A stretch of 64,000 bases of DNA from Cliona cf. orientalis (lineage: Eukaryota; Porifera; Demospongiae; Clionaida; Clionaidae). The position numbers and the translations under genes were made by a program. The notes below the pieces were generated by a model. The model searched no databases and was not told where the DNA came from. It saw nothing but the letters and a program-made list of their open reading frames with translations. This document shows, one piece after another, positions 1 through 56,013 of this stretch (its first letter is position 1; each line of letters opens with the position of its first letter). Where the stretch lies: contig OZ005695.1 of assembly GCA_963930775.1 (NCBI GenBank), forward strand, positions 1,922,001 through 1,986,000, written 5' to 3'.

Positions 1-3000
1 CAAGAGAGTGAAGTGGAGATCAATTTTCAAGATAGCAATCTGAGACCTGAACATGTAAATCACCTAGCAAATGCTCTGTGTGAAAAATCTAGCATTATTC
101 AGATCAAGGGTCTCAATCTGAGCGGCAATACATTCAGTAATTCACTAGCGGTTGATTTCTTTAACAAAGGTGCTGCTGCTCTTAAATCGTTAAAGGTCCT
201 TATCCTCCGTAACTGTGATATTGGAACATCCTTAGATATCAAAGCTATGCTGTCTGCATTAGCACAGTCCACTTCTCCAACACTAACTTACTTTGATCTA
301 TCATTTAATAGCATATCAATTTCATTCTTACAAGTTCTGCAACATCACCTTGAATCTTATGACACATTTGAAAGCCTACAAAATTTAGGCCTAAAGGGAT
401 CATTACATAATGATGTGACGACATGTTTCTTGGCAAATTTCAGTGAATCAGATGCACTTTCATCGAAATGTAAGCGTCTTCGACGACTTGATCTATCAGA
501 AAACTATTTGGGTGAACCTGGAAATCCAGATTTAAGCAAAGTGGTTACACAACTCCTCAGTCTTGGAAGAGACTTCAACTTGTGTTTAAATGACGAGTAC
601 ATGTCTGAGGTTCGCGATCAATTTGTATGTGTGATGGAAGAGTCAATAAAAAAGAAAGGAACTATAAATCATACTATTGCTCATGGAGTGATTGTTGGTC
701 CTGGGCGCTCAGGCAAAAATACCTTGATGAGTCGTTTGATGGGAAATGGACCGCCCAAGTCTGATACTGTTTCACCTAGTACTGGAGTATTGGAAAACAT
801 AGTTAAAGTTGAAGTCAAGAAGCTAAGTACAGTGGCCGCTGCTGTTAGTAATTTAGAGTGGAAAAAGCTGCAGTATGATGAAGAGGCACTTGAGTTGATT
901 ATGACCACAGCAAGGCATCACTCTGCTACAACCACTATATCAAAACCTATTGTACCCAAATACATCATTAAAGAGCAAACTAATGATCTGATATTAACTA
1001 CTGCTAAGACACCTATTCCTTCCAAACGTCCTAAACATACAAAACATAAGATTGTAAACTTTTTCGAGAAATTCAAGAGATTTAAAATAAGAAAATCCCA
1101 TCAATATCCTGTGGATAAACTTCATGAAGAAGAAAGAGGTGCAATTGTGTATGCTCCAGATGTTGAGCCTGTGGATATTTTTAAACAGGCAGTGAAGCTA
1201 CGAGGTATGGATGCTCTACGAGAGCACCTTGAATCATCATGGTCCCTATACCTCACCAACATTGGGGGACAGATTGAGTTTCAGGAACACCTTCCCCTTC
1301 TTGTTTGTAGGCCATCAATCTTTTTTGTTATTTTCCCTCTTCATCATGATCTTGATAAACCTTATGATGTATGTTATGAGTATCCAGATGGTCGAGTGGA
1401 GACCTATAAATCACCAGGAACATTACTGCAGGAACTACTCCAAACACTTGCAACCATCAGTGCTTCTCTTTTCATAAGTGGTCGGCAGAAAGGTTCTGAG
1501 GCAAGAATAAAACCCAAGGTTTTCTTTGTTAGTACACACAAAGACTGTCTACCAGAAAACGGTGCAGAAGAGATCATCCAAAGGAAGGATGAACTGCTTC
1601 AAAGTTGTGTAAGACAGACAGCTCTATTTGATCAAGGTTCAATTCAATTTGCTGAGCATCCTAAGCGATTAATATTTGCAGTTAATAATCTTTCAAATGA
1701 TGATGATGAATTTCAGAAAATATGGTCAGCTGTACAGACAACTGTTGAAAGAGACGAGTTTACAATTGAGTGCCCTTCATCGTGGCTTATATTGAGCCTA
1801 ATTCTCAGAGCAAAACACAAATCTGATCGGGTCTTGAGCTTTGATAAGTGTTTTAGCATTGCCCGGGAATGTGGGATATCGGATCGTAAAGAGTTGATTC
1901 AAGCACTATCATTCATTCACTCAAGGCTTGGACTTGTACGATATTTTGATGTGAAAGACCTGAATTCACTTGTGGTAATAGATCCTCAAGTCCTGTTTGA
2001 CAAAATCACGGATCTCATTGTCAAAACATTCATAATTGAAAATGTTGATGCTAAGAAGATAGAACATTTTCATCAGAGAGGCATCATTCCTGTGGCTGTC
2101 ATGCAAAATCTTAGTGATAAGAGTAGCTCTGATTCACAGCTACCATTTGTATGGCTGACAGATCTATTGAACTATCTCAGAATAGCTGCATTCTTTACTG
2201 ATAAAGATGGTGACAAATATTTTTCCCATCAGCACTTTGTCATGCACCTGATTCTCAGTCCGCTCTGCTTTCTAACTCACATTTATGGCCTTCATTGCTG
2301 GTTGGATTCAAGAGTGGCTTCTGCCCTCGCGGAATCCCTGGGGCCCTGATCAAGTATCTCATGACAAATGAAATGAGGTCAAAAAGATGTTGGAATATTA
2401 TTTCAAATAAGATATTTCGAAATGAAGTTTCCTTTGCTATCCAGGCGCATGGAAATATTACTCTGAGAATTCTACCTACTCACTTGGAAATCAGCTATTA
2501 CTCTGAAGCAGACTCAACAGAAGGAGCATCTGAAGAAGACGCAAAGGAAGATGAACTAATGAAAGAAGATGAGCTAATGAAGAAAACCTGTGAAATGGTG
2601 TCGATGCAAATCCAGAAGGCCATGAGCACGGTCACTAGTCAGTGCATAGAGTGCAGCTACTTCCTTAGTTTTTACTGCACACTATCTACATGTCAATCTC
2701 ATAGGCATCCAGCTGAGCTAGAATATGACGGCAAAAATCCATTTAAGGTTGTATGCAAGGTTGCAAATAAACGTGGAAATCTACCAAAGGGCCATGAAAT
2801 TTGGAATCTTCAAAAGAAACAAAAACCAAGTAATACTATGTGAAAATATAGCATAGTACTTAGAGTTTTATTTATTTGAGATTACTACATTTTTATAGGA
2901 AACGTAAAATTGGATAAAGTGATTGATGGTGATGGCCATGGAGTTCTCAAGCACCTTGGTCGAATTGCTGATTCAATGACTGAGTGGGAAGGTCAGATTT

Positions 3001-5352
3001 CTGATGAACTCAAACTCACACCAGCTGATGTTGCAAGCATCCACACAAAGCACCCAAGAAATCTTAAACTACAATCGTAAGACCTCCATTCAATGACATC
3101 ATATTATTGTTTGCCTAGACCATTTTATGTGCATAATTTTTTGTAAATATCTTATTTCATTCTTCTGTAATCCTTCAGGAGAGAAGCTTTATATATATGG
3201 AAACAAAAGCTTGGTTCTGATGCTACATATCAGAGATTGATAAACGTCTTTGAACGAGCTGGCTTTCAAAATTGTGTAGAAATCGTCGGAAGTATTGTGT
3301 GTGAAGAAGAAATCCAAAGTGAAATAGATGATTCTAGTGATTATGATGAGCCTATCCCCCAACCAGAGACATATCCAAAAGTACAATTAAGCCCTCCACA
3401 AGCACCCAAGCTATCAAGATGTGTCTCGTCATGTGATGAATATATACTGATAAATGCAGCCACTCATGCCAACAATCTTCCAAAAGGTGAGTACTGCTGA
3501 TAAAGGGCTCAGAATCAAAGTGGGAAAATTAATGTTGACTTAGCTCCCCGAATCTCGAAAATATTTAATATAATATTACAATAGATCAAGTTCATGATCA
3601 GAAAATACTGGAGTCACACGATGTGTCCATTGTACCCATGCTATCATCTAAGCACAAGGTGAATGAATATGTTAATGCTATATAATAGTATTCTTATTTG
3701 ATTATGCCACAACCAGATTGAGAGTTTATCCTTCATTTTAGCCAACAGCAACAACTCCTGTCCAACGATCAAATAAAGAAATGTCTTTGAATTATCCAAT
3801 CTATATTGGATTGTATGATTATTCTGCAAGAGTGTTTGAAGACTTGGGCTTTTTGAAAGGTGATGTGATGTACATTATCGATAATAAAGATGATGACTGG
3901 TGGTGGGCACGCTTGAAGGATGGTGGAGAGGAGGGCTATGTTCCCAGCAACCATGTGACTGATTACAGGAGTGCTTTACATGCTGAAAAGTAAGTTGGAT
4001 TGCCTATGATGTATAGGTACATTGCATGATGTATGTAGCTAATACAAAATCTCCTAAATGTTGCTATCCCCTCTCCCCTCCACCCTTCTCTTGCTCTTTC
4101 TCCCTCTCTGTTATAATTTTATTTTACTAGGTGGTTCATTGGTCAAAATATAATAACCAAACGTGGAGATGCTGAGGAACAACTTATGCTCAACCCATTA
4201 AATGGTTATGGGTCATATCTTATCCGAGAAAGTAAAAACAATCTTGGTGGTTATGTGCTCTCTGTTCGAGACAGGGATCAAGTTAAGCACTACAAGATTA
4301 AAGAGTCAGACAATCAAGAATTCTTTATCTCTGAACATCGCATGTTCAATTCCCTTCAAGCTCTTGTAACCCATTATCAACAGCAAGCTGATGAACTTTG
4401 TGTCAATCTCAGGAATCCCTGTGCCTTTACTCCTACTGATGTCTCAGGAAAACCTGTTGATGCTGATGTCTCAGGAAAACCTGTTGATGCTGATGTCTCA
4501 GGAAAACCTGTTGATGAATGGGAAATAGATAGAAGTAGCATAACATTAGTTAGGAAGGTAATGTCTGGTGAATTTACTGAAGTGTGGAAGGGTAGATGGA
4601 ATAACACAAGACCAGTTGCAGTTAAGACACTCAAACCAAAGCAAAACATGACTGTAGATGAATTTTTTCAACCAGTAAATCTAATGAAGGAATTACGACA
4701 CCCAAAACTTGTTGAACTTTATGGTGTTTGTTCCAAGAAGGAGCCTGTATTCATAATCACTGAGTTCATGGAATATGGGAACTTGCTAGAATACTTGCAT
4801 TGTGGAGGTAAATCACTAAACCTTAGTCTGAATCAGTTGATGAACATGGCCTCACAAGTGGCAGGAGGAATGGCCTACCTTGAGAACAGGAATTATATTG
4901 TTCACAGGGATTTACAAACCAGTAATGTCCTGGTTGGAGCAGGCCCAATATGCAAACTAGCCATCTGTAAACTAGCTCGAGTAATGCATCAAGATGTCTA
5001 TGAGGGACAGGAATGGGAAGAAATTGCTATCAAATGGGCAGCACCGGAGGCTGCCTTACATAACAAGTTCAGCATCAAGTCAGATGTTTGGTCATTTGGT
5101 ATTGTTCTCTGTGAAATCATTACTCACGGTAAACCACCCTATCCTGAAATGACTGATGCTGAGGTGAAGCAGAAAACACAGCAAGGCTACCATATGCCTC
5201 AATCATTAGGATGTCAAGGCAAGCTCTATGATATCATGCTCAATTGCTGGCAAGCTGAGCCTGCAAACCGACCCACATTTGAGAGCCTCCAGCAGCAACT
5301 AGCAGATTTTGATAATAACTATAACAATATATATGGAAAACTATATATATAA
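1..5352 (+). CDS. Gene A: LRR-Roc/COR-Death-SH3-SH2-kinase-like protein (5' partial, one frameshift)
   Basis: Paralogue of gene B; the window opens inside the large first exon, so any NACHT part lies upstream. Exons by GT-AG and comparison with B: 1-2829, 2899-3076, 3179-3486, 3585-3658, 3742-3989, 4131-5352, with phases that join. Domains: LRRs (nt 13-600), Roc-like GTPase (P-loop near 700-725, TNIGGQ near 1255, STHKD near 1530), COR-like (1750-2800), Death fold (2900-3300), acidic linker with YDEP, SH3 (3805-3960, ending VPSNHV), SH2 (4131-4410, YLIRES with the phosphotyrosine-binding Arg), Src-type kinase (4528-5310). The kinase keeps VAVK (Lys codon 4624) and HRD (Asp 4909) but has ICK instead of DFG (4963-4971), and its glycine loop is degenerate. 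Compared with C, one base is missing in a T-run near 2217-2224, shifting frame; downstream frame is open, so this is either a recent mutation or a sequencing error. Confidence 0.85.
4438..4518 (+). repeat. Three 27-bp tandem repeats in the SH2-kinase linker of gene A
   Basis: Three near-identical in-frame copies (4438-4464, 4465-4491, 4492-4518) encode DVSGKPVDA, DVSGKPVDA and DVSGKPVDE. They lie between the SH2 domain and the kinase-like domain, where Src-family proteins have their regulatory linker. Gene B has no such repeats at the same place. Confidence 0.95.
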
Positions 5353-10532: not shown

Positions 10533-10587
10533 GCTTAATGGAGGGTGTCAAAAATCGTAGCAACGCCCCTCATTAACATGCGTTCAC

Positions 10588-11271
10588 ATGCCCGGTATAT
10601 TATTCGTATTACCGGCATTACTAATTTTAGGCGATCCCAACAGTATCCAACAGGAGATCCAGCATTTAGGGAAGACCTTCCAAGCCAACTCCTATCCTGA
10701 GAGAGTTCTAGATCCGATATTGAACCGGAAACCTACGAACACACCACAGCCTCCCCAGCCCACAACAGAAGAGAGCACCACTGAGACGAAGATCCTGTGT
10801 CTACCATACGTCAGAGGCGTGACAGAGAAGATAGAACGAGTATGCAGGAGCATCAAGACAGTCAACCTGAAGTTGGTCACCAAGCCTCACCGGACCATTA
10901 GACAGACACTGGTTAATGTGAAGAACAGAGTACCAGAGGAGAAAAGGACTGGAGTGGTCTACGAGGTTCCCTGTCGTGACTGTGACCATGTCTATATAGG
11001 TGAGACGGGTAGAACCCTCAAGAAGCGATTGGCGGAACACAAACAAGCAGTGAGGAGATTTGATGGGAAAAATGGCATCGCTGTCCATGTCCACCAACAT
11101 GACCACCACATAGACTGGGAGAGTGCTAGAGTTGTTGGAAACGAGATGTTCTACTGGAGGAGAAGAGTGCTGGAAGCCATCAGGATCAACTCTCACCCCA
11201 GCACCATGAACCTAGACTGTGGCCTGAATCTAAGCAACCTATGGCGTCCGTTCCTAACCACACCCACTTGA
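10588..11271 (+). CDS. Penelope-like retroelement fragment: GIY-YIG endonuclease domain
   Basis: 227 codons. The C-terminal half carries a GIY-YIG nuclease core: VVYEVPCRDCDHVYIGETGR (residues about 125-144), then KKRLAEHKQAV, a His-rich segment and the late EMFYWRRRVLEAIRI helix with its Glu. This arrangement, with the CxxC inside the GIY-YIG start, is typical of the endonuclease at the C-terminus of Penelope-like element polyproteins. The reverse transcriptase that should precede it is absent, so the copy is 5'-truncated and probably dead. The hammerhead motif about 180 bp downstream supports the Penelope assignment. The ATG is only the first one in the remaining frame. Confidence 0.8.
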   Translation: MPGILFVLPALLILGDPNSIQQEIQHLGKTFQANSYPERVLDPILNRKPTNTPQPPQPTTEESTTETKILCLPYVRGVTEKIERVCRSIKTVNLKLVTKPHRTIRQTLVNVKNRVPEEKRTGVVYEVPCRDCDHVYIGETGRTLKKRLAEHKQAVRRFDGKNGIAVHVHQHDHHIDWESARVVGNEMFYWRRRVLEAIRINSHPSTMNLDCGLNLSNLWRPFLTTPT

Positions 11272-15192: not shown

Positions 15193-18100
15193 ATGGATGA
15201 TGAAATTTCAAGTTATTTGGTCGGTATCAAAGAAAAGTATCGCAATGTAAGCTTTTACCACACAAAACAGTATCCATGTCACTTGAAGACCGTTAATGTA
15301 CATGGATTGGAATTGTTGGAGTCGGTGTTAGAAAAGGAATCAGGCAACTCAGGAGGGGCCAGGCAGGCTCGTATACCGTATAATCGCCTATTTGACCGTG
15401 AAATAACATTAAAACCAAATAGTACGGCTCCTCGAAAAGTGATACTAATCCAAGGTGAAGCTGCTGTGGGAAAAACGATGTTATGTATGTCAATTGTGGA
15501 GGAATGGGCTAGTGGAAAGCTATTTCAGGAATTTCAACTTGTGCTTTTACTGCCTCTCAGTTCCAGGAATGTAACTTCAGCTAGTTCCCTTTCAGGGCTG
15601 CTCAATGTGCTGTATGCTGATTTAAAAGGTGATCATACTTGCTCTGTAGTGGCTAAGTACTTAATGGAAAAAAAGAATCATTACAATATTCTACTTATTG
15701 CTGATGGGTGGGAAGAGCTTCAAGACTCCCAGTGCCAAGCAGGGTCATTCATACACTCTCTTCTTTTTAGCAGTGACATTATACCTACTTCATCCACTAC
15801 CGTTCTTATTACCTCCAGACCAGGCTGCCGCAAAGTTCAAATTATGCATGATCGTTTAATTACCTTGACTGGATTCGACAGAAGAGCCATTGAATCTGTA
15901 GTCCAGTCCGAGTTTGCCGGTGACTTAAGGAGAATCCACTACCTCATAGCACAGCTGAAAGATAACCCATTAGTTGCAAATGTGTGTAGTATTCCTCTCA
16001 ATCTTGCTATAGTATGTCACACTGGCGATGCTGAACCCCTACCAGATACCATGACAAAGTTGTATTCAAAGTTGATTTGGACACTTGCTTCAGCTAGCAT
16101 AACACATCCTCACGAAAATTGCTTGCAATTTTCTAGCCATCATGATCTTCCTGAGGAGCTACAGCAGTCATGGTGGCAAGTATGTGAACTAGCTTTCAGG
16201 AACATTGAGAAGGGTCACAATATGTTTCCTCTGTCACGTGCAGCATTTACTTCATCAAAATTAAATGAAATCTCATGTTTTGGTTTAACTAAGCCAATAG
16301 CAGAAACTGAAGACACTCTATCCTTCTCTTTCATTCATCCTTGCTTTGAAGAGCATCTTGCTGCTCTACATCTTGCAAAGCAGCCAAAAAAAGCACAGCT
16401 TAAATTCATGCGTGAATTGGTAGCCAATGAAGAGTGCAAAAGTAAAATGGCTATTACATTCTGGCACTTTTTCATCAGTAACTGTGCACATCATGTAGTC
16501 AACTTGGATCCTGATGTTGTTGATCAAATTTTGAAGATTTTACTATCACCTTATTGCACTACCAAACAGAAGTACTACATGGATCTCTGCCATTTGTCGT
16601 ATGAAGCAAAGCATGATGTAGTCAATCAGAAGGTAGTCGAAGCTATCAGCATCATGGGTACTGGAGTATTATGGTTTGGTCAGTCACGTGATATATATGA
16701 CTTTAATTCCATGATGTATGTACTTCAAAATATAACACAAGAGAGTAAAGTGGAGATCAACTTTCAAGACTGCAATCTAAGACCCGAACACATAAATCAC
16801 CTAGCAAATATTCTGTGTGAAAAATCTAGCATTGTTCAGATCAAAGGTCTTAATCTGAGTGGTAACAGGCTCAGTAATTCACTAGCAGTTGATTTCTTTA
16901 ACATAGCTGCTGCTGCTCTTAAATCCTTAAAGGTCCTTATCCTCCGTAACTGTGACATTGGGACAACCTTGGATATCAAAGCCATACTATCTGCATTAAC
17001 AGAGTCCACTTCTCCAACACTGACTCACTTTGATCTATCATTTAATCGGATATCAATTCTCTTCTTACAAGTTTTGCAACAGCACCTTGAATCTTATGCC
17101 ACATTTGAAAGCCTACAAAATTTTGGCCTGAAGGGATCGTTAAACGATGAAGTAACTATAAGTTTTTTGGCAAATTTCACCGATGTACTCTCATCTAAAT
17201 GTAAACTTCTCCGACGACTTGACCTCACTGAAAATAATTTGGGTGAACCTGGAAATTCAGATTTAAGCAAAGTGATTTCACAACTCCTTGGTCTTGGAAG
17301 AAACTTTAACTTGTGTTTAAATGATGAGTACATGTCTGAGGTTCACGATGAATTTGTATGTGTTATGGAAGAGTCAATAAAAAAGAAAGGAAGAATAAAT
17401 CATACTATTGCTCATGGAGTGATTGTTGGTCCTGGACGTTCAGGAAAAAACACCTTGATGAGTCGTTTGATGGGAAATGGACCGCCCAAGTCCGATATCG
17501 TTTCACCAAGTACTGGAGTATTAGAAAACATAGTTAAAGTTGAAGTGAAAAAGCTGTGCACAGTTGCAACTGCTGTTAGTAATTTAGAGTGGAAAAAGCT
17601 GCAGTATGATGAAGAGGCACTTGAGTTGATCATGACCACAGCAAAGCATCACTCTGCTACAACCACTATATCAAAACCGATTGTAACGAAATACATCATT
17701 AAGGAACAAACAGAAATTACTAGTGCTAAGTCACCTATTCCTTCCAAATTCCTTGGTGATTCTGAACATAGTACGACAAAAGATAAGATTGTAAAAGTAC
17801 AAAAACCTGATCAGGATCCTATGGGATATAAAATTCAAGAAAAAGAAAAGAGTGCAATTGTGTATACACCAGATGTTGAACCTGTGGATATCTTTAAACA
17901 GGCAGTTAAGGTACGAGGCATGGATGCTCTAAGAGAGCACCTTGAATCATCATGGTCCCTATACCTCACCAATACAGGGGGACAGATTGAATTTCAGGAG
18001 CACCTTCCCCTCCTTGTTTGTGGGCCATCAATCTTTTTTGTTACATTCCCTCTTCATCATGATCTTAATAAGCATTATGATGTCTGTTACGAGTATCCAG

Positions 18101-21100
18101 ATGGTCGAGTGGAGAAGTACAAGTCACCAGGAACATTACTGCAGGAACTACTCCAAACACTTGCAACCATCAGTGCTTCTCACTTCACAAGTGGTCAGCA
18201 AAGAGACTCTGAGGCAAGAATGAAACCCAAGGTTTTCTTTATCGGTACACACAAAGACTGCCTACCAGCAAATACTGCAGAAGAGTTCATCCAAAGGAAT
18301 GATGAACTGCTTCAGAGCCATGTGAGACAAACAGATCTATTTGATCAAGATGCAATTCAGTTTGCTAAGCATCCTAAACGGTTGATATTTGCAGTCAATA
18401 ATCTTTCACAAGATGATGACGAATTTCAGAAAATACGATCAGCTGTACAGACAACTGTTGAAAGAGACGAGTTTACAATTGAGTGCCCTTCATCATGGCT
18501 TATATTGAGCCTAATTCTCAGAGCAAAACACAAATCTGATCGGGTCTTGACCTTTGATAAGTGTTTTAGCATTGCCCGGGAATGCGGAATATCTGATCGT
18601 AAAGAGTTGAATCAAGCACTATCATTCATTCACTCAAGGCTTGGACTTGTACGATATTTTGATGTAAAAGACTTGAATACACTTGTGGTGATTGATCCTC
18701 AAGTCCTGTTTGACAAGATCACGGACCTCATAGTCAAGACGTTTACAGTTGAAAATGTTGGCGTTAAGAAAAAGGAAGATTTTTGTCAGAGGGGTATCAT
18801 TCCTGTGATAGTCATGCAAAATGTTAGTGATAAGGATGAAAAAGGCTCTGATTCACAACTACCGTTTATATGGCTAACTAATTTATTGAACTATCTCAGA
18901 ATAGCTGCCTTATTCAAAGATAGAAATGGTGATAAATATTTCTTCCCATCAGCACTTTGCCATGCACCTAAATTTGATTCTAAATCACCTCATGCATATG
19001 CCTTCATTACTGATTGGATTCAAGAGTGGCTTCTGCCCTCGCGGAATTCCAGGGGCCCTGATCAAGTACCTCATGACAAATGAAATGAGGTCAAAACGAT
19101 GTTGGAATATTATTCCAGACATGATATTCAAAAATGAAGTTTCCTTTGCTATCCAAGCACATGGAAATATTACTCTGAGAATTCTACCTACTCACTTGGA
19201 AATCAGCTATTACTCTGAAGCAGATTCAACAGAAGGAGTATCTGAAGAAGACGATGAGCTAATGAAGAAAACCTGTGAAATGGCATATATGCAAATCAAG
19301 AAGGCCATGAGCACTGTCACTAGTCAATGCATGGAGTGCAGCTACTTTTTTGGCTTTTACTGTACACTATCTACATGTCAAGTTCATAAGCATCCAGCTG
19401 AAGTAGAATGGGATGGAAAAAATCCATTTAAGGTGGTATGTAAGGCTGCAAACAGACGACGTCGTGGAAATCTACCAAAGGGTTGCGAAATTTGGAACCT
19501 CCAAAAGAAGCGAAAACCAGGTAATACAGTCTGCTTATACAGCATACATGATTGTAGAAGCTTGTTTCATTTTTTATAGGAAAAGCACAATTGGATAAAG
19601 TGATTGATGCTGATGGCCATGGAGTTCTTAAGCACCTTGGTCAAATTGCTGATTCAATGACTGAGTGGGAAGGTCGGATTTCTGATGAACTCAAACTCAC
19701 ATCAGCTGATGTTGCAAGCATCCATACGAAGTACCCAAGAAAATTAAAACTGCAATCGTAAGATATTCATGCAATGATATTGTTCATCTGGTCCATTTTG
19801 CATAATGAGTTTCATAAATGGCTTTTATTCTTCACAGGAGAGAAGCTTTGTATGTATGGAAACGAAAGCTTGGTTCTGATGCTACCTACCAGAGATTGAT
19901 GAATGTCTTTGAACGAGCTGGCTTTCAAAATTGTGCAGAAATCGTCCGAAGCCTTGTGTGTGAAGATGAAAGTGAAGAAGATGATTCTAGTGATTATGAT
20001 GAGCCCATACCCCAACCAGAGACATATCCAAATGTACAACCAACACCTCGACCATCACTCAATCTCTCAAGATGTGTTTCATCATGTGATGAATACTCAC
20101 TGGTCAATCCAGCTGCTGCCAACAATCTTCCAAAAGGTGAGTATTGCTGATAATAATACAATAATGTCATTATAATAAAATAAAAAAAAAACTAGGTCAA
20201 GTACACGATCATAAAGTACTAGAGTCACACAATGTGTCCATTGTACCCATGCTATCGTCTAAGCACAAGGTGAGTGTAGTTACTGTATACTATTTATACT
20301 TATATTATTTCAGAACAATTATCCTAGCCAACAGCTGCAACTCCTGTACCACGACCCAAAACAGAAAAATCTCCAAATTTTCCAACCTATATTGGATTGT
20401 ATGACTATTCTGCAAGAGTAGCTGAAGACTTGCACTTTATGAAAGGTGATTTGATGTACATTATCGATGATAAAGATGATGACTGGTGGTGGGCACGCAA
20501 GAAGGATGGTGGACAAGAGGGCTTTGTCCCCAGCAACTATGTGACTGAGCACGGGAGTGATTTACATGTTGAAAAGTAAGTTGGGCTGCCTGCATCTGCC
20601 TGAGTGGGTATATTTTGCTTGATTTATCCCTCTTTCCTCTCCACCCTCTCTCTCCCTTATAGGTGGTTCGCTAGTCAAATAACCAAGCATACTGATGCTG
20701 AGAAACAACTCATGCTCCCATTAAATAGTTACGGATCATATCTTGTTCGAAAAAGTGAAAATACTACTAGTGGTTATGCACTTTCTGTTCGAGACAGGGA
20801 TAACGTTAAGCACTACAAAATTAGTAAGTTGGATAATGGAGAATTCTTTATCATTGCACGCTCCAGATTCAAGACTCTTCAAGACCTTGTAATTCATTAT
20901 CAACAGCAAGCTGATGGACTTTTTGTCAATCTCAAGAAGCCCTGTGTCACTGTTTATACTGATGAATGGCAAGCTGATAGAAGTGGTATAAGATTAATTA
21001 GGAAACTAATTTCTGGAAAATCTACTGAAATGTGGGAGGGTATATGGAATAACACTACACCAGTTGCAGTTAAGACACTCAAACCAAATCAAACCATGAC

Positions 21101-21785
21101 TACTGATGAATTTTTGCAATCAGCAAATCTAATGAAGAAATTACAACACCCAAAACTTGTTCAACTCTATGCTCTTTGTTCAAAGGAAGAACCAGTATAC
21201 ATAATCACTGAGCTCATGGAGCATGGGAGCTTGCTGGATTACTTGTGTGACGAGGGGAAGTCACTAGGACTTCCCCAGCTATTTCGCATGGCCGTACAAG
21301 TGGCAGCAGGAATGGCCTACCTTGAGGAACAGAATGTCATTCACAGAGATTTAGCAGCAAGGAATATCCAGGTTGGAAAGGGTGTATTATGCAAGGTAGG
21401 TAACTTGGAATTGGCTCGAGTAATGGATAAAGATATCTATGAGGGTCAAGAGGAGGAACAAATTGCTATCAAATGGGCAGCACCAGAGGCTGTCTTACAC
21501 TACAGGTTCAGCACCAAGTCAGATGTTTGGTCATTTGGGATTGTTCTTTATGAAATCATCACTTATGGTAAACCACCCTATCCTGGCATGACCGATGCTG
21601 AGGTGAAACAGCAAATACAACAAGGCTACTGTATGTTCCAACCTATGGGATGTCCAGACAAGCTCTATGACATCATACTCAACTGCTGGCATATGGAGCC
21701 TGCTAACCGACCCACATTTGAAACCCTCCAGCGGCAACTAGCATTGCTGACTGTGAAGGAACAATGGATATTACCAAAACATTAA
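15193..21785 (+). CDS. Gene B: NACHT-LRR-Roc/COR-Death-SH3-SH2-kinase-like protein (one frameshift)
   Basis: The most complete member of the cluster. The start at 15193 is chosen because MDDEISS aligns with MEEEISS of gene C; an in-frame ATG lies at 15013. Exons: 15193-19520, 19580-19757, 19838-20136, 20196-20269, 20328-20575, 20663-21785; all introns are GT-AG and phases join. Domains: NACHT with Walker A GEAAVGKT (residue 88) and Walker B IADGWEEL; LRRs (from nt 16740); Roc-like GTPase with GPGRSGKN (residue 746), TNTGGQ, GTHKD; COR-like; Death fold across exons 2-3; SSDYDEPIPQPETYP linker; SH3 (20391-20550); SH2 (20664-20945, YLVRKS); Src-type kinase (20968-21760). VAVK Lys (21072) and HRD are kept, but DFG is NLE (21402-21410). 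A 5-bp deletion near 18999, relative to C, breaks the COR frame; reading resumes in another frame (LIGFKSGFCPRGIPG). Likely an intracellular sensor fused to a signalling tail (inference). Confidence 0.85.
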
Positions 21786-23064: not shown

Positions 23065-23390
23065 TACCGTATTTCCTCGAAATCTCGCCGCGGCGAGATT
23101 TTATTTCAAGGCTCCGTTTGGTGCGGCGACAATTCGAGGGCGGCTAGATTTCGAGGGCGGCGTCTACAGAGATCGATACGCACGCACGTACACAGCTTCA
23201 ATAATAATGTATGCACGTAAAATATCCGTGCGCATACGGAAATTGCTGTCGATCCCTTACAGTCGATTTCCCTCGCGTTTGAACATGCGTGCGCGTGCGC
23301 GTATGCGTAGCGTGATCGCGTGCGCGCGTTAATGTACGTTCGCGAGTTCTACCCTTATGCGCATGCTCCATTTCAAATCTTTGGTACGCA

Positions 23391-24371
23391 ATGTCTGCAG
23401 AACCAGGCCGCAAAGCACCGTACTCCATTGATCTGCGTCATCGCATGATCTGGCAGATAATCGGAATGAGTCTTCCATATCGAAAAGTGGCACAAAATTT
23501 AAATGTAGCAGTTGGCACTGTGCACAATGTACTTCGCCGTTTCCAAGCAACTGGCGAGTTGGAGCCAACTAAACCTGACAGAAGCAATACCAGAAAGCTG
23601 TCAAACAATCAAGAATTGCTACTTGTTGGTTTATTCCTTGACAACCCAGGTCTATATCTAGGAGAAGTATGCCGTGAAGTAGCAGATATTACTGGCACAC
23701 AAATTTCTCCCTCTACTGTATGCCGCATACTTCGTAGGCATGGGTTTTCACGAAAAAAGATCCAGCAAGTAGCTCTACAGAGATCTGCAATTGCCAGAGC
23801 CAAGTTTATGGCTGACATGCAATTTTTTCACATAGATCAAATGGTATGGTTAGACGAGACGGGTTGTGATAGGCGAGATCAAATTCGCAAGTATGGATAC
23901 AGCCTGAGAGGTGAGCGTCCTGTATACCATCGCCTGTTACATAGAGGTAACAGAATATCCGCAATCACTGCCATGTCTACCGATGGCATTGTAGCACTAG
24001 AGCTATTCCAAGGGACTCTGAATGGTGATCGTTATCTTAATTTCCTACGAGGAACACTTATACCTGAAATGCAACCTTTTGACGGATCCTCTCCCCAATC
24101 TGTGTTGGTTCTGGACAATTGCAGTGTTCATCATGTCAGTGGTGCTACTGACTTACTTAGAGAAGCAGGAATCCTGGTTGTATTCCTTCCGCCGTACAGC
24201 CCTGACCTAAACCCAGCAGAGGAGCTATTTAGTGCAGTGAAGTACTACTTGAAGGAACATGATGAGATTTTACAGGCAATGCGAGATCCCACCCCCTTAA
24301 TTAAATCTGCATTTGACAACATTTCTCCAGAGCAGTGCAAAGGATGGATCAATCACAGTGGAATTTATTGA
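23391..24371 (+). CDS. Tc1/mariner (IS630-type) DD34E transposase
   Basis: 326 residues, close to the usual length. The N-terminal half has paired helix-turn-helix motifs (SLPYRKVAQNLNVAVGTVHN at about residues 24-43, then SPSTVCRILRRHGFSRKK). The catalytic domain has VWLDETGCD (first Asp), LVLDNCSVH (second Asp) and PPYSPDLNPAEELF (Glu), with 34 residues between the second Asp and the Glu. It would bind the terminal repeats and cut and paste at TA sites. The ORF is uninterrupted. Start: the first ATG, giving a typical N-terminus MSAEPGRKAPYS. Confidence 0.93.
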   Translation: MSAEPGRKAPYSIDLRHRMIWQIIGMSLPYRKVAQNLNVAVGTVHNVLRRFQATGELEPTKPDRSNTRKLSNNQELLLVGLFLDNPGLYLGEVCREVADITGTQISPSTVCRILRRHGFSRKKIQQVALQRSAIARAKFMADMQFFHIDQMVWLDETGCDRRDQIRKYGYSLRGERPVYHRLLHRGNRISAITAMSTDGIVALELFQGTLNGDRYLNFLRGTLIPEMQPFDGSSPQSVLVLDNCSVHHVSGATDLLREAGILVVFLPPYSPDLNPAEELFSAVKYYLKEHDEILQAMRDPTPLIKSAFDNISPEQCKGWINHSGIY

Positions 24372-31228: not shown

Positions 31229-31633
31229 GCTCAAAATTATGCCAGCATAATTCGCCAATCATGCGGCCTAATGGTTACAAAATCAAATAGCTAGCCCAAT
31301 AATTATACAGGCCAGCTCAGATGCCTTTAATACCCGTATTACTTTGATGTGGTCACAAACCACACCCTCCTATTATTTTTTCCTTAGGTGAACTCTGAGC
31401 CCATCAATGCACAGTTAGCTAAAATCCTTACGATGAGGACACCACTTGCAAGGGACGGAAGACCATTAATGACTTCTTGATGGTCTCAATACTCTAGTTA
31501 ATTAATTCTTGATGATTCATCGGCCTATAATTAGATCTAGGGGGTCATATGCCAATTTCACTCTTCCGTGGGGGTGTATCCTTTATTAATGGAAAAGCCC
31601 ATTGCTAATTCTGAGTGTACTTGTAGCTATTAA

Positions 31634-32639
31634 GGTACCATTTAATTGCGTGGGCGTGAGCGTCAGGAATGGCTAATTCAATTAGCGAATCGTGAAGGGG
31701 CGTGGCCGAAGAGGCCATACGAGTGCTTTTGGTCGAAGGTGGGCGTGTCCAGAATCGGCCAGGGATGATTATGCGCGTGTAATTAGCGACCGGAAGTGGC
31801 CCCTGAAGAAAAGGCCGGTAATTGCCCACATCAAAGCAAGATCAAAGCATTCTTTCTTAACTATTAACCGCAACGACAAAAAAAAAAAAAAAAAAAGCTT
31901 GTTAGGCCTAATTAAGCATGTGGGCGTGTTCCTGGCACTGTGTGGAGTGTGTGCGTGTGCGTTAATGCAGGTTTTATTGCTTCCGATCGGGCGTGGCTTC
32001 ACGGGCCAGTGCTTGGACATCGGCGCCTGGGACTTGGCTTCGGCGATAGGTGGGCGTGTCCCGGAAGCGGTGGTGACCTTTGAACCCCGCGAGGAGGCTT
32101 TGGGGGCGTGGCAGGAGGTCAAAGGTGAGGCCATGTCTGTTAATGAGGCACTGTACGGCGGTGCGATCGAGGGGCCTGTACGGCTGGACGGAAGCTGACG
32201 ATGGTTTGAAGCGGATGTGGTTGCGATGACGTGTTGTTACTCCGCCCACACAGGAAATGAGGTGAGCTCTTGCGTGGGCGGTGTGGCAGAACGGCCTCCA
32301 AGTGTTTGTGTGTGTTTTGGCCTTGAGGAAGCTGTGCGTTTTAATTGGGATTGATTGTGGGCTTCCGGTGGACATCCGGTGGTTAGTAGGCACTTGATTG
32401 AGAATGGTGGTCCTTGGGGAACAGGGTGGGGCTGTTTTGGGCGTGGCCTGGCCCCTCCCTTCCGGCTCGGCCTCCGGTCCATGGAGGATATTAAATGAAC
32501 ACTTCCGGCTCTAGCAGCCACACCCCTGAGACCTGTGCAATTAAAAGGGCGTGGTTACACAACATGCACCTCACTAATGACTTTGATGTGGTTTAGGTGT
32601 CATATCCCCCACCTCACGCCCACGCAATTTAATGGTACC
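31634..32639. mobile_element. 1006-bp TTAA-flanked non-autonomous transposon, left half of an inverted pair
   Basis: Ends GGTACCATTTAATTGCGTGG and its inverse; TTAA stands directly outside both ends (31630-31633, 32640-32643). TTAA duplication points to piggyBac-like or Kolobok-like transposition. The interior has a run of about 18 A and no transposase. Open frames such as 31692-32198 arise from G+C-rich non-coding sequence and are not conserved as a domain. Confidence 0.85.
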
Positions 32640-32687
32640 TTAAGCTTTTTACTATGCCATATACTGTGTACAGTAGATAAGTTTTAA

Positions 32688-33693
32688 GGTACCATTAAAT
32701 TGCGTGGGCGTGAGGTGGGGATATGACACCTAAACCACATCAAAGTCATTAGTGAGGTGCATGTTGTGTAACCACGCCCTTTTAATTGCACAGGTCTCAG
32801 GGGTGTGGCTGCTAGAGCCGGAAGTGTTCATTTAATATCCTCCATGGACCGGAGGCCGAGCCGGAAGGGAGGGGCCAGGCCACGCCCAAAACAGCCCCAC
32901 CCTGTTCCCCAAGGACCACCATTCTCAATCAAGTGCCTACTAACCACCGGATGTCCACCGGAAGCCCACAATCAATCCCAATTAAAACGCACAGCTTCCT
33001 CAAGGCCAAAACACACACAAACACTTGGAGGCCGTTCTGCCACACCGCCCACGCAAGAGCTCACCTCATTTCCTGTGTGGGCGGAGTAACAACACGTCAT
33101 CGCAACCACATCCGCTTCAAACCATCGTCAGCTTCCGTCCAGCCGTACAGGCCCCTCGATCGCACCGCCGTACAGTGCCTCATTAACAGACATGGCCTCA
33201 CCTTTGACCTCCTGCCACGCCCCCAAAGCCTCCTCGCGGGGTTCAAAGGTCACCACCGCTTCCGGGACACGCCCACCCATCGCCGAGGCCAAGTCCCAGG
33301 CGCCGATGTCCAAGCACTGGCCCGTGAAGCCACGCCCAATCGGAAGCAATAAAACCTGCATTAACGCACACACACACACACTCCACACAGTGCCAGGAAC
33401 ACGCCCACATGCTTAATTAGGCCTAATAAGCTTTTTTTTTTTTTTTTTTGTCGTTGCGGTTAATAGTTAAGAAAGAATGCTTTGATCTTGCTTTGATGTG
33501 GGCAATTACCGGCCTTTTCTTCAGGGGCCACTTCCGGTCGCTAATTACACGCGCATAATCATCCCTGGCCGATTCTGGACACGCCCACCTTCGACCAAAA
33601 GCACTCGTATGGCCTCTTCGGCCACGCCCCTTCACGATTCGCTAATTGAATTAGCCATTCCTGACGCTCACGCCCACGCAATTAAATGGTACC
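32688..33693. mobile_element. 1006-bp TTAA-flanked non-autonomous transposon, right half of the inverted pair
   Basis: The same length as the element at 31634-32639 and its near-perfect reverse complement, separated from it by 48 bp. TTAA lies at 32684-32687 and 33694-33697. Only scattered substitutions were noticed between the two, so the insertion or duplication is recent. Confidence 0.85.
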
Positions 33694-33697
33694 TTAA

Positions 33698-38166: not shown

Positions 38167-38635
38167 TGCAGGCTCCGTGGTTTTTTAGCGATTTTGCACT
38201 TTTCTCAGCTGCCTCCATGCGTAATGACAGTTTCTGTGCCTCTGCAAGTGAGAGGTCAGCCACAGTGAGCAACTTCTTTTGAATCGATTCACTCCGTAGA
38301 CCACACACAAGGCGGTCTCTCAGGGCCTCTTTGAGGTAAGCCCCAAACTCACAGTGCGTTGACAGCCTGCGAAGCTCAGCCAGGTATTCAGAAATAGACT
38401 CACCTCCGGCTTGAGCACGGCGATGAAAATGAAATCTCTCCGCTATGACGATATGTTTGGGCTCGTAATGGGCTTTCAGAACCTCCACCAGGTCTTTGTA
38501 CAACTTCTCCTGGGGACGGGTGGGTGACACGAGATTTCGAAGGAGAGAATAGGTCTTGCTACCAATTAGACTCAGAAACACTGCCACTTTCTTCTCGTCA
38601 GCAACGTCGTTTGCTGCGAAAAATAACTCGACTCG
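38084..38635 (-). pseudogene. gag: Gypsy gag, 3' portion (5' portion at 44870-44955), split by the BEL insertion
   Basis: The start codon lies at 44955 (minus strand) just inside the 5' LTR; 29 codons are read before the BEL insertion. The remainder resumes at 38635 and runs to 38084. Removing BEL and one ACTCG copy leaves the two pieces in the same frame (633 nt including stop), so gag was open when BEL landed. It contains a typical retrotransposon Gag core (RVELFF..., FLSLIGSKTYSLLRNL). The A6 run at about 38185-38190 is the point where gag and pol frames diverge by one: programmed +1 shifting or a homopolymer indel. Confidence 0.8.
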
Positions 38636-38834
38636 TGAAAAGAACGATAAATCTCTAGCTCTCTTGCAATTCGGACAAGTTACTGGCACTAGCACGCAGG
38701 ATTACTTTAGATTTCACAGTTCACAGCAATTCATCATATTTTCAGAGAACAAGCATGGAGCATGTCTATCACGTGATACAAATCAATGAATACAATTAAT
38801 AATAAGCAACAATAAATGACGATCAGTTCCAATA
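38636..38834 (-). repeat. 3' LTR of the BEL element
   Basis: 199 bp, the same length as the copy at 44671-44869. Confidence 0.9.
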
Positions 38835-38990: not shown

Positions 38991-39308
38991 TTAATCGTCC
39001 TTTTCAAGTTCAGCGATCCACTCCCTCCTTACTGTATCAGCCTTCTTGGCGGCTGCTCTTTTCGGACGGATCTGCTCAGTGAGAGTTGCAATATCACCAT
39101 CAGGTGAAGATTCATTGGATTCAGGATCAAGGGTGGTTTTGGCACAACTCGTTTCAGTTGATTCACACTGAATCTCGAGTGGGTACAGTAGCTGTATAGG
39201 CCTTTTCAATATTGAATGTTGTCGATCACGGGAGGCCACTTTGACTATAGCTGCTCTCGTTTGACCGTCTCGTCCCCTCATGATTTCTTGGACCAGTCCT
39301 AATTCCAC
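38991..39308 (-). pseudogene. C-terminal end of the BEL polyprotein in a shifted frame
   Basis: Continues the DUF5641-type domain (LGLVQEIMRGRDGQTRAAIV, LLYPLEIQ) immediately after the stop of the main frame. The join at about 39305 is consistent with loss of a single base, so the last roughly 100 residues are separated from the polyprotein. Confidence 0.75.
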
Positions 39309-44578: not shown

Positions 44579-44670
44579 ATCGCCCTCGTGTAGTGGGCTT
44601 TAATTAGAATCAATATAGAAAATGAATTCGAACTCACAGGTAGCTGGATCCAATCCGGCTCGAAGGACCA

Positions 44671-48949: not shown

Positions 48950-48958
48950 TAAATTTCA

Positions 48959-51369: not shown

Positions 51370-54300
51370 ATGGAGGAAGAGATTTCAAGTATTCTAACTG
51401 CTATTAAAGAAAAGAGTTGCAGCATACGTACTAGCCATATGAAGCACTATGTATGCAATTTGAAGAAAGTGTATATGGATGAATTAGAGCTATCAGAGCT
51501 AGTGTTTGAAAAAGAGCCTGACACTAAATTGGGCAGTGATGACGGGAAGCAGGTTCGCATACCTTACAGTAGCTTATTTGATCCAAAATTTACTAAGGTG
51601 AAATCAAATGCTGTGCATAAAACGATCCTTATACAAGGTGAAGCTGCTGTGGGGAAAACTATGCTATGCTTATCAGTAGTGGAGGAATGGGCTAGTGGAA
51701 AGAGGTTTCAGGAATTTCAGCTTGTACTTTTGCTGCCCCTTTATTCCAGGAGTGTAGCTTCAGCTAGTTCCCTTTCTGGGTTGCTTAATGTGCTGTATGC
51801 TGATTTCAAAGCAGGTACTAGCTCCAAAGTGGCTAGCTACTTGAAGAGTAATGGGCAACATAACATTCTTCTTATTGCTGACGGGTGGGAACAGCTTCAG
51901 GACTCAGAGTGCAAAGCAGGATCATTTTTACACTCTCTTCTATTTAGTAGTGACATCATACCCACTTCATCCACTACAGTTCTTATTACCTCCAGACCAG
52001 GCTGCGTTGAGACAAGTGTTATGCAGTCCACAATTTATCGGTTAATTACTTTGACAGGATTTGACAGAAAAGCAATTGAGTCTATAGTCCAGTCAGAATT
52101 TGCAGGTGATTTTAAGAGTATCAGCTACCTGACGGCACAGCTGAATGATAATCCATTAATAGCTAGTGCATGTGGAACTCCTCTTAACGTTGCCATAGTT
52201 TGCAATCTATGTCGAGCTAGTGGTGCTGAACCCCTACCAGATACCATGACAAAATTGTATTCAAAGCTAATTTGGACACTTGCTTCAGCTAGCGTAGAAA
52301 GTAGTGATTCTTATGAACGTAGCTTGTCTAGCCACCATGATCTTCCCGAGGAGCTGCAGCAGTCATGGTGGCAAGTTTGTGAGCTAGCTTTCAGGAATGT
52401 TGAGAAGGGTCACAGCACTTTTTCTTTATCAGATTCTACGGCACATACTTCATCAAAACTTTCACACTTTGGCCTAACTAAGCCAATAGCAGAAACCGGA
52501 GACACTCTATCGCCCCCTTTCATTCATCCTAACTTTGAAGAGTATCTTGCTGCTCTGCATCTTGCAAAGCAGGCACAAGAAGTACAGAATAAATTCATGC
52601 GTGAATTTGTGGCCAATGAATGCAAAAGTAAAATGGCTATAACATTCTGGCACTTTTTCGTCAGTAACTATGCACATCAGGTAGCCAACTTGAATCCTGA
52701 TGTTGTTGATCAAGTTTTGAAGATTTTATTAGCAGCCTATTGCATTACCAAACAAGAGTACTACATGGATCTCTACCATTTGTCGTATGAAGCAAAGCAT
52801 GATGTAGTCAATCAGAAGGTAGTTGAAGCTATCAGCATCATGGGTACTGGAGTATTGAGGTTTGGTCATCCACGTGATGCATACGATTTCAATTCCATGG
52901 TTTATGTGCTTCAAAATGTAACACAAGAGAGTGAAGTGGAGATCAACTTTCAGGACTGTAATCTGAGACCTGAACATATAAATCACCTAGCAAATGCTTT
53001 GTATGAAAAATCTAGCATTGTTCAAATCAAGGGGCTTAATTTGAGTGGAAACAGGCTCAGTAATTCACTAGTGGTTGATTTCTTTAGCAAAGCTGCTTCT
53101 GCTCTTAAATCCTTAAAGGTCCTTATCCTCCGTAACTGTGACATAGGGACAACCTTGGATATCAAAGCCATGTTGTCTGCATTAACACAGTCCACTTCTC
53201 CAACACTGACTCACTTTGATCTATCATTTAATCACATATCAATTTCCTTCTTACAAGTTCTGCAACAGCATCTTGAATCTTATGGCACATTCAAAAGCCT
53301 ACAAAAGTTAGGCCTAAAGGGATCGCTAAACGATGATGTGACGACAAATTTTTTGGCAAATTTCAGTGATGCACTCGCATCGAAATGTAAATGTCTTAGA
53401 CGACTTGACCTATCTGAAAACGATTTGGGTGAACCTGGAAATCCAGATTTAAGCAAAGTGATTTCACAACTCCTTAGTCTTGGAAGAGATTTTAACTTGT
53501 GTTTAAATGATGAGTACATGTCGGAAGTTCACGATGAATTTGTATGTGTCATGGAAGAGTCAATAAAAAAGCGAGGAACTATAAATCATACTATGGCTCA
53601 TGGAGTGATTGTTGGTCCTGGACGCTCAGGTAAAAACACCTTGATGAGTCGTTTGATGGGAAATGGACCGCCCAAGTCCAATACTGTTTCACCTAGTACT
53701 GGAGTGTTGGAAAACATCGTTAAAGTTGAAGTGAAAAAGCTGTGCACAGTTGCCACCGCTGCTAATAATTTAGAGTGGAAAGAGCTGCAACATGATGAAG
53801 AGGCACTTGAATTGATCATGACCACAGTAAAGCATCACTCTACTACAACCACTATATCAAAATCGATTGTAACCAATTGCATCATTATGGAGCAACCAGA
53901 AAGTCCTATATTAACTAGTACTAAGTCATCTATTCCTTCCGAACGCCTTGGTGGTCCTAAACGGATAAAGTATAAGATTGTAAATTTTTTCAAGAAATTT
54001 AAGAAATATAATGTACGAAAATCCAATCAAGATCCTGACGGTGTGGGTAAAGTTCAAGATAAAGAAAAGAGTGCAATTGTATACACACCAGATGTTGAGC
54101 CTGTGGATATTTTTAAACAGGCAGTGAAGCTACGAGGCATGGATGCTCTACGAGAGCACCTTGAATCATCATGGTCCCTATACCTCACCAACACAGGGGG
54201 ACAGATTGAATTTCAGGAATACCTTCCCCTCCTTGTTTGTGGGCCATCAATCTTTTTTGTTATATTCCCTTTACATCATGATCTTGATAAGCCTTATGAT

Positions 54301-56013
54301 GTTCATTATGAGTATCTAGATGGTCGAGTGGAGACCTACAAATCACCAGGCACATTACTGCAAGAACTACTTCAAACACTTGCTACCATCAGCGCTTCTC
54401 ACTTCACAAGTGGTCGGCAAAAAGATTCTGAGGCAAGGGAAAAACCCAAAGTTTTCTTTGTTGGTACACACAAAGATTGCCTCCCAGAAAATGGTGCAGA
54501 AAAGATCATCCAGAGGAAGGATGAACTGCTTCAAAGTTGTGTAAGACAAACAGCTCTTTTTGATCAAGATGCAATTCAGTTTGCTGAGCATCCTAAACAG
54601 TTAATATTTGCAGTCAATAATCTTTCGGATGATGATGACGAGTTTCAGAAAATACGATCAGCTGTACAGACAACTGTTGAAAGAGATGAGTTTACGATTG
54701 AGTGCCCTTCATCATGGCTTATATTAAGCCTAATTCTCAGAGCAAAACACAAATCTGATCAGGTCTTGACCTTTGATAAGTGTTTTAGCATTGCCCGGGG
54801 ATGCGGGATATCTGATCGTAAAGAGTTGACTCAAGCACTGTCATTCATTCACTCAAGGCTTGGACTTGTACGATATTTTGATGTGAAAGATCTGAATATG
54901 CTTGTGGTGATTGACCCTCAAGTTCTGTTTGACAAGATTACGGACCTCACAGTCAAGACGTTTACAGTTGAAAATGTTGGTGTCAAGAAAAATGAAGATT
55001 TTTGTCAGAGGGGCATCATTCCTGTGACAGTCATGCAAAATATTAGTGAGAAAGACGAAAATGGTTCAGATTCACAGCTGCCATTTAAATGGCTGACAAA
55101 TCTCTTGAATTATCTCAGAATAGCTGCCTTATTCAAAGATAGAGATGGTGACAAATACTTCTTCCCATCAGCACTTTGCCATGCACCCAAATCTGATTCT
55201 AAATCACCTCATGCATATTTATGGCCTTCATTGCTTGTTGGATTCAAGAGTGGCTTTTGCCCTCGTGGAATTCCAGGGGCACTGATCAAGTACCTCATGA
55301 CAAATGAAATGAGGTCAAAAAGATGTTGGAATATTATTCCAAATAAAGTATTCAAAAATGAAGTTTCCTTTGCTATCCAGGCACATGGAAATATTACGCT
55401 GAGAATTCTACCTACGCACTTGGAAATCAGCTATTACTCTGAAGCAAATTCAACAGAAGAAGCATCTGAAGAAGACTCAAAAGAAGAGGAACTAATGAAA
55501 GAAGATGAGCTAATGAAGAAAACCTGTGAAATGGTATCTATACAAATCAAGAAGGCCATGAGTACTGTTACTAGTCAGTGCATGGATCGCAATTATTTTT
55601 TTGGCTTTTACTGTCCATTACTCACCTGTCAAGCTCATAAACATCCAGGTGAAATTGAATGGGATGGCAAAAATCCATTTAAGGTGATATGTAAGGTAAC
55701 AAATCAACGTGGAAATCTACCAAAGGGCTGCGAAATTTGGAACCTTCAAAAGAAACGAAAACCAAGTAATAATATCTGATAATACAGCATAGTACTTAGA
55801 TTTTGTTTATTATTGTGCTTACTACATTTTTATAGGAAAAGCACAATTGGATAAAGTGATTGATGCTGATAGCCGTGGAGTTCTTAAGCACCTAGGTCAA
55901 ATTGCTGATTCAATGACTGAGTGGGAAGGTCGGATTTCTGATGAACTCAAACTCACACCAGCTGATGTTGCAAGCATCCACACAAAGCACCCAAGGAATC
56001 TGAAGCTACAATC
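51370..56013 (+). CDS. Gene C: NACHT-LRR-Roc/COR-Death protein, 3' exons not found
   Basis: Exon 1 is 51370-55765 and open throughout (1465 codons), with no frameshift, unlike A and B. Exon 2 is 55836-56013 (first half of the Death fold), with the same length (178 bp) as in A and B and a good donor. Domains: N-terminal region (1-80), NACHT (Walker A GEAAVGKT at residue 90, Walker B IADGWEQL at about 170), LRRs (about 520-720), Roc-like GTPase (GPGRSGKN at 749, TNTGGQ at 940, GTHKD at 1032), COR-like (about 1090-1400). Both NACHT and Roc should bind nucleotide. The expected third exon (second Death half), SH3, SH2 and kinase exons are absent up to 64000; repeat DNA begins about 70 bp after the donor. 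Either the gene was truncated by insertion or rearrangement, or the last exons lie beyond the window. Confidence 0.88.

Follow-up and report, generated by a model that had tools for sequence, protein, structure and literature searches.

What kind of receptor would place the sensor of an innate immune protein, a GTPase-like region, a Death domain and a Src-type signalling module in a single chain? The common view of animal NLRs is that recognition falls to their leucine-rich repeats (LRRs) and signalling to adaptors that are separate proteins. The question is raised by a locus of the sponge Cliona cf. orientalis, at positions 15193 to 21785 of a 64,000-nt stretch of assembly GCA_963930775.1 (contig OZ005695.1, here C7, positions 1,922,001 to 1,986,000 of the forward strand), which is referred to below as the window. 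An earlier reading made from the letters alone (the sequence-only reading) proposed that sensing, GTPase switching and phosphotyrosine signalling are wired together in this gene. Domain order, exon structure, the presence of a tandem array, motif losses and relative rates of change could all be established directly from the DNA. The locus belongs to a tandem family of NLR genes whose products are probably cytoplasmic, and this family very probably encodes one chain that ends in a dead-looking kinase.

The gene at 15193 to 21785, designated copy B, has the order NACHT, LRR, Roc-like, COR, Death, SH3, SH2 and Src-like kinase, as the sequence-only reading had it. Among the hidden Markov model (HMM) searches which that reading envisaged, those with the Pfam models for NACHT, COR-A, Death, SH3, SH2 and kinase gave matches, the one for LRR did so weakly, and the Roc-like region was identified by motifs only. 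The last exon scores strongly for both SH2 (E 1e-21) and PK_Tyr_Ser-Thr (E 2.2e-86), and its top match in the PDB is Src (E about 1e-107), the match stopping at residue 359 of 373 such that the C-terminal tail of Src is left unmatched. Both the SH3-SH2-kinase order and the closest similarity are thus those of the Src family, with the proviso that an N-terminal myristate could not adjoin the module, because the module lies at the C-terminus of a long chain. The Death domain is recognized once its two exons are joined. Towards the N-terminus, a profile built from exon 1 of four related copies (C, P1, E and F, with B left out) matches the NACHT domain and following helices of NLRP3 (E 7.5e-11), as well as the LRRs of NLRP1 (E 8e-6) and NLRP5 in the PDB. 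COR-A follows the Roc-like region, as expected of a ROCO protein, in all four copies scanned (best E 9.4e-9); its score exceeds the Pfam cut-off in copy B and does not reach it in copy C. Pfam placed Roc at the expected position in one of these four copies (C, E 0.18). The Roc-like region of copy B has no Pfam Roc match, and a weak one elsewhere in that copy (E 0.15) sits on the NACHT P-loop. A phmmer comparison of the Roc region with the bacterial Roco structure 3dpu gave E 0.11, and two AlphaFold runs on Roc-COR returned predicted local distance difference test scores (pLDDT) of 32.5 and 36.5, too low for a fold search.

The sequence-only reading also described copy B as one exon series with joining phases. 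This holds 3' of a break within COR, where the phases do join; however, copy B as assembled is not intact, as tblastn, the gene model and the alignment all show. Relative to copy C, 5 nt are missing near 18995, within COR, the tblastn match switches frame near 18990, and the frame opened by the ATG at 15193 meets a stop at codon 1297 of 2083 (19081-19083). A 24-nt GT-AG stretch noticed by eye near 18929 was considered as a tiny intron, but its removal cannot restore the frame, since 24 is divisible by three. Copy A, at the 5' edge of the window, has a 1-nt deletion near 2221, about 55 nt from the break in B in alignment terms. Since the frames beyond both breaks are open and constrained, the breaks would be either recent or artefactual, and may represent true lesions or assembly errors. 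Copy A had been reported to repeat the order from the LRRs on; the order is indeed repeated, and it includes NACHT as well, which is located 5' of the window, such that copy A has the complete set. The five introns of copy B are 59, 80, 59, 58 and 87 nt long. Tail introns of 58-87 nt leave little space for a separate promoter, and a single chain running from COR into the tail is therefore much the likeliest arrangement for this copy.

Copy C (C7:1973370-1992974) provides the clearest view of the whole gene. Only its 5' part falls inside the window, its 3' end lying 7 kb past the border, and within the window it seems to lack a kinase; this appearance was dispelled when the last four exons were found past the window end, after an intron of about 12 kb. 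Exon 1 alone comprises 1465 open codons, and after splicing the frame runs uninterrupted from the ATG to its stop codon, giving 2114 aa; each of the five introns has GT-AG borders. Copies E and F are likewise open, at about 2,100 codons each, as is P1 under a condition given below; the one-chain claim is supported by these copies and not by B as assembled. Local tblastn on the flanking DNA placed 12 copies between C7:1885226 and 2135838, and the genome search added a 13th at C7:2137830, all 13 on the plus strand. No further copy was detected by tblastn in the 73 kb 5' of the first. Every domain is present in 10 of the 13. SH2 lies downstream of all 13, SH3 was matched by HMM in 12, and the kinase match is full or nearly full in 11, being partial in H (tblastn only, ending at residue 89 of 264) and in K, near which no SH3 match was returned by HMM. 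The head of the 13th copy matches only up to residue 800 of C and has no COR match, while its SH3, SH2 and kinase are present. Among the 12 modelled copies, the borders of exons 2 to 6 are AG/GT except at exon 5 of K and the exon 5 donor of I. Breaks occur in the tail only in D, in exon 1 only in A, B, G and J, and in both in H, I and K. In P1, COR-B and Death also occur a second time as a pair (C7:1889655-1891267), positioned after exon 1 and before the Death exon used and the SH3 exon. Recurrence of the order from copy to copy rules out chance.

Across the genome, at least 32 NACHT-LRR-Roc-COR loci were obtained from 34 matches. The candidates scored in these searches were 32 of 909 for exon 1, 119 of 2511 for kinase, 150 of 194 for SH3, 150 of 290 for COR-A, 150 of 1292 for Death and, in full, 126 of 126 for SH2. 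By position, 18 of the 32 listed loci have a same-strand SH2 within 15 kb downstream, namely the 13 array copies (14 kb in copy C, <10 kb in the others) and those at C7:4.55 Mb, C15, C8:1192551, C4:7464124 and C4:7517447. The remaining 14 have no same-strand SH2 in that range; at C13:7696819 an SH2 lies 9.6 kb away on the opposite strand, and at C19:2.32 Mb an SH3-SH2-kinase module lies 46 kb away, also on the opposite strand. In the flanking DNA at C15 and C8, Death is followed by SH3, then SH2, then kinase. The C15 copy is close to the array, with exon 1 and the tail exons open as individual exons. The C8 copy is divergent, with SH3 and SH2 each split over two exons; because its exon 1 is only 47% identical to that of C, the domain order would either predate the array or have arisen twice. 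Other matches listed in the genome include at least 150 for COR-A (some below cut-off) and 104 for NACHT, two frames on C14, of 2612 and 2443 aa, each with a pair of NACHT matches, and an open frame of 2925 aa (C17:2316562-2325288, minus strand) with ten consecutive tyrosine-kinase-like matches and a weak SH2.

The residues on which switching and catalysis depend were counted in the 12 modelled array copies, i.e. leaving out the 13th (2137830) and the one at C7:4.55 Mb. Exon 1 has the NLR layout of NACHT followed by LRRs, and Walker A and Walker B of the NACHT domain are intact in 12/12. The Roc-like region instead reads GKN at the P-loop and NxGGQ at G3, where Asn replaces Asp, in all 12, with THKD in 11; the canonical G1 and G3 residues of Roc are thus absent, and the substituted positions are the two Mg-binding residues. 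Hence, the family may be called ROCO-like, and the GTPase switching attributed to Roc is doubtful. Within the tail, the SH2 Arg is retained in 12/12 copies and the VAIK Lys in 11/12. HRD is kept in seven of the 11 scorable array copies, the four exceptions (E, F, J, K) reading HRN, and the Gly-loop is eroded. The DFG Asp is present in none of the 11, its place being taken by ILK, ICK, NLE, NFE or MFE. Adding the C15 tail (VFK) and the C8 tail, which lacks Lys, HRD (HGN) and DFG alike, it is missing from 13/13 scorable fused tails. Copy H does not enter the tallies for DFG and HRD, since its kinase match is incomplete and the stretch contains a stop. The Lys, HRD and DFG set of an active Src-family enzyme is therefore incomplete in the fused tails, whereas two unfused Src-like kinases, on C12 and C19, retain all three; 'unfused' here signifies that no NLR-ROCO exon adjoins them among the matches listed. 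Over SH2-kinase, identity to the C12 kinase is 50.7-55.2% for the C15 tail and eight of the array tails. Regarding the proposal of phosphotyrosine signalling, its part concerning the protein's own kinase is not supported, and the reading of phosphotyrosine by SH2 is plausible.

Rates of change differ between head and tail. Ratios of nonsynonymous to synonymous substitution (dN/dS) were computed pairwise by the Nei-Gojobori method (NG86) for the 12 copies; each domain drew on 55-66 of the 66 possible pairs, the N-terminus on 62, with exclusion of pairs that were saturated or had dS <=0.05 and of codons gapped against C. The ratios were 0.22 for the N-terminus, 0.22 for NACHT, 0.38 for the helical region, 0.21 for LRR, 0.29 for Roc, 0.15 for COR-A, 0.23 for COR-B and 0.31 for Death, as against 0.53 for the linker, 0.67 for SH3, 0.58 for SH2 and 0.65 for the tyrosine kinase. 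Restricting the comparison to P1, C, E and F gave 0.22 for the head (bootstrap 0.19-0.25) and 0.60 for the tail (0.48-0.72), with LRR at 0.17 (0.11-0.26), and 11 copies without H gave 0.25 and 0.61; the four-copy set was bootstrapped 300 times and the 11-copy set 60 times. In the 11-copy set, 40-codon windows exceeded 0.8 only at residues 1841-1900 (1.05 and 1.13), which correspond to the SH2-kinase linker and Gly-loop. The head is accordingly under purifying selection, and the protein changes faster in the tail. Head and tail trees also disagree with good support, the former joining P1+E (1.000), A+I (1.000) and F+B (0.992) and the latter P1+A (1.000) and F+J (0.98), then C (1.000), so that heads and tails have been reshuffled or converted.

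Based on these patterns, the reading that we favour, at a little under even confidence, is that the cis-linked Src-like pseudokinase tail serves as bait on an NLR-ROCO-Death receptor. The NACHT ATPase would be the sole working switch, with the degenerate Roc-COR holding or dimerizing the chain as a scaffold, and the SH3-SH2-pseudokinase tail would offer a bait or docking surface resembling the active Src-like kinases of the host, the putative targets being microbes that attack the real Src enzymes. Once the tail is engaged, whether by a microbial factor or by an unscheduled partner bearing phosphotyrosine, NACHT would open and oligomerize, thereby clustering the Death domains, which might then recruit a cell-death or inflammatory partner by homotypic contact.

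A number of observations weigh against this interpretation. Roc is the weakest of the domain calls, depending on motifs and on position before COR-A. Loss of the DFG Asp predicts and does not prove a dead kinase, as exceptions exist, and the stretch aligned in copy H reads SDFSLA; the comparison with unfused Src-like kinases has n=2. When C12 is included in the tail tree (8 of the 12 array tails, the row for G being the whole tail), the C8 tail groups with that unfused kinase (0.913) and not with the array tails, such that the tail was possibly acquired twice. P1 is open only if a duplicated COR-B/Death piece of about 1.5 kb is skipped, copy I has no GT donor at exon 5, and exon 5 of copy K is unplaceable. 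Altogether, breaks affect 8 of the 12 modelled copies, A and B among them, and many array copies may be pseudogenes or carry assembly errors. Finally, a tail dN/dS near 0.6, from pairwise ratios, is compatible with relaxed constraint, which is a fair alternative to diversification of a bait.

The strongest rival, itself unlikely, makes the tail an output platform: the LRR or NACHT part would sense, as in other NLRs, and the tail would recruit and allosterically activate free Src-family kinases or gather phosphotyrosine partners. In its favour are the retention of the SH2 Arg in 12/12 copies, the good Pfam scores that SH3 and SH2 still attain, and the presence in the genome of Src-like kinases with intact motifs. 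An output surface should nonetheless be conserved, and here the tail outpaces the head while the LRR is among the slowest domains. Because the LRR is conserved while the dead-looking tail varies, which is the reverse of what an LRR sensor would lead one to expect, the bait reading is placed above it. The alternative that the tails, or even the whole array, are functionless relics dying under relaxed constraint draws on the broken copies and the elevated tail ratio; it is improbable, given that C, E and F have remained open, that dN/dS is well below 1 in both head and tail, that the SH2 Arg is kept and that the frames beyond the breaks in A and B show constraint. Still less credible is the original proposal, in which an NLR and a functional GTPase switch are joined to a tyrosine kinase that is itself active; the Lys, the HRD of most array copies and the top match to Src are in its favour, but the DFG Asp is gone from every scorable fused tail, HRD from E, F, J, K and C8, the Gly-loop has decayed in the array, and the Mg-binding residues of Roc are replaced in all 12. 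Least probable of all is that NACHT-LRR-ROCO(-Death) and SH3-SH2-kinase are adjoining but separate transcription units, for even though tail introns reach about 12 kb in C and about 7 kb in F, and read-through of the donor after the first Death exon of C hits an immediate stop, the introns of B measure only 58-87 nt, phases and splice sites match in the modelled copies, and the order recurs on C15 and C8.

Table 1. Coordinates of the exons and domains of copies A, B and C, in window numbering
Feature	Position	Strand	Basis and remarks
Copy A exon 1	1..2829	+	starts 1532 nt before window position 0; 1-nt break near 2221
Copy A exon 2, Death first half	2899..3076	+	gene model
Copy A exon 3, Death second half and linker	3179..3486	+	Death E 2.3e-10
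Copy A exon 4, linker	3585..3658	+	gene model
Copy A exon 5, SH3	3742..3989	+	tblastn, gene model, SH3 HMM at C7:1925811
Copy A exon 6, SH2 and predicted pseudokinase	4131..5352	+	Pfam, gene model; ICK at DFG place
Copy B exon 1 (NACHT, helical region, LRR, Roc-like, COR)	15193..19520	+	Pfam, gene model, alignment to A and C
Copy B NACHT	15439..15918	+	PF05729 E 8.3e-20, residues 83-242
Copy B LRRs (approximate)	16843..17310	+	weak Pfam LRR, profile match to NLRP1/NLRP5 LRR
Copy B Roc-like region (approximate)	17389..18480	+	motifs: P-loop GPGRSGKN, G3 NTGGQ, G4 THKD
Copy B COR-A	18487..18783	+	PF16095 E 6.9e-9, 36.2 bits against cut-off of 35.3
Copy B COR-B part	18986..19520	+	frame 3' of 5-nt deletion; tblastn frame change, alignment
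Copy B exon 2, Death first half	19580..19757	+	gene model, Pfam on joined exons
Copy B exon 3, Death second half and linker	19838..20136	+	Death E 1.6e-9
Copy B exon 4, linker	20196..20269	+	gene model
Copy B exon 5, SH3	20328..20575	+	Pfam E 6.2e-17, gene model
Copy B exon 6, SH2 and predicted Src-like pseudokinase	20663..21785	+	Pfam; NLE at DFG place
Copy C exon 1, uninterrupted (NACHT, LRR, Roc-like, COR)	51370..55765	+	Pfam, gene model
Copy C exon 2, Death first half	55836..56013	+	gene model
Copy C exons 3-6	68366-70974 (past window end)	+	gene model on flanking DNA

The remainder of the window contains several further features. An open DDE_3/HTH transposase frame (23316-24371) lies 1.5 kb 3' of copy B. 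Between B and C, on the minus strand, are a long terminal repeat (LTR)-retrotransposon-like frame with reverse transcriptase, RNase H and integrase (34783-38184) together with gag (38084-38701), and a 1766-aa frame that by eye is polyprotein-like (39299-44599). A near-perfect palindrome at 31630-33697 has inner arms of 671 nt (31939-32609 and 32717-33387, 99%) and outer arms of 266 nt (31630-31895 and 33432-33697, 100%), and includes a frame whose nearly identical translation is encountered again at 62228-62764. A DUF6589 frame (47738-48949) adjoins two opposite-strand helicase frames (48959-50390) with DEAD, Helicase_C and weak RecQ zinc-binding matches, the whole of 47738-50390 being perhaps a DNA transposon. 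The frame at 10561-11271 has a weak GIY-YIG match, below cut-off, and may derive from a Penelope-like element.

Regarding known systems, the sequence-only reading knew of no described protein with all of these domains. A literature search, with most subscription papers, bioRxiv preprints and supplements outside its reach, likewise found no NACHT-LRR-ROCO-Death-SH3-SH2-kinase protein, and the complete architecture did not appear in the accessible portions of PMC8242945 or PMC8662651; partial forms, however, are in print, from sea anemones and the sponge Dysidea avara. Each building block is of a known kind; what is provisionally new is their combination, together with the dead-looking tail and the rate at which it changes. 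Novel Gene 3 (NG3) of three actiniarian species, for which an immune role was proposed from domain content, is likewise a single predicted invertebrate protein that unites kinase, Roc/COR, Death and SH3, yet it has TIR, and neither NACHT nor SH2 occurs in the section that describes it (PMC5094078). For D. avara, the legend of Figure 2 lists COR among bona fide NLR domains; going by the accessible text, the NACHT-LRR core is common to the Cliona family, to NLRX with COR of that sponge and to NLRP3 and NLRP1, some D. avara NLR genes are clustered, and Death follows COR in Cliona whereas it is N-terminal in the comparison of D. avara and animal NLRs, with SH2 and SH3 absent from the main text and COR plus kinase possible in the supplements (PMC12909245). 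Elsewhere among invertebrates, the consulted parts of the respective papers describe TRADD-N proteins of Amphimedon that carry SH3, SH2 or kinase domains (PMC8195603) and Aplysia TIR proteins with ROC-COR (PMC9334734). The LRR-ROC-COR proteins of brown algae were proposed as diversified immune receptors, but, as far as the available text goes, these plain LRR-ROCO proteins diversify their LRR exons, in contrast to the conserved LRR and variable tail in Cliona (PMC11378527). Src-family kinases resemble the tails in layout and sequence, the Cliona tails differing in being fused to an NLR and in having lost DFG. With respect to plants, the accessible account of ZAR1 and ZED1 has an NLR detect effector attack on kinases via a pseudokinase, ZED1 being a separate protein of the receptor-like cytoplasmic kinase (RLCK) family, unlike the predicted Src-like pseudokinase carried in cis by the Cliona proteins of an animal (PMC6634424). 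Plant NLRs with integrated domains (NLR-IDs) have, fused to the NLR, an extra domain homologous to a pathogen target; in the Cliona family, a fusion and a similarity to host Src-like kinases are seen, any pathogen target being putative. By analogy, the Cliona family might tentatively be viewed as an animal counterpart of plant integrated-decoy NLRs, with a Src-like bait in cis, diversified in an array, reshuffled between heads and tails and possibly acquired twice; we hold this with less assurance than the bait mechanism itself. If it is true, the variable recognition surface would reside in a signalling module that the receptor has captured, as is known to happen in plants.

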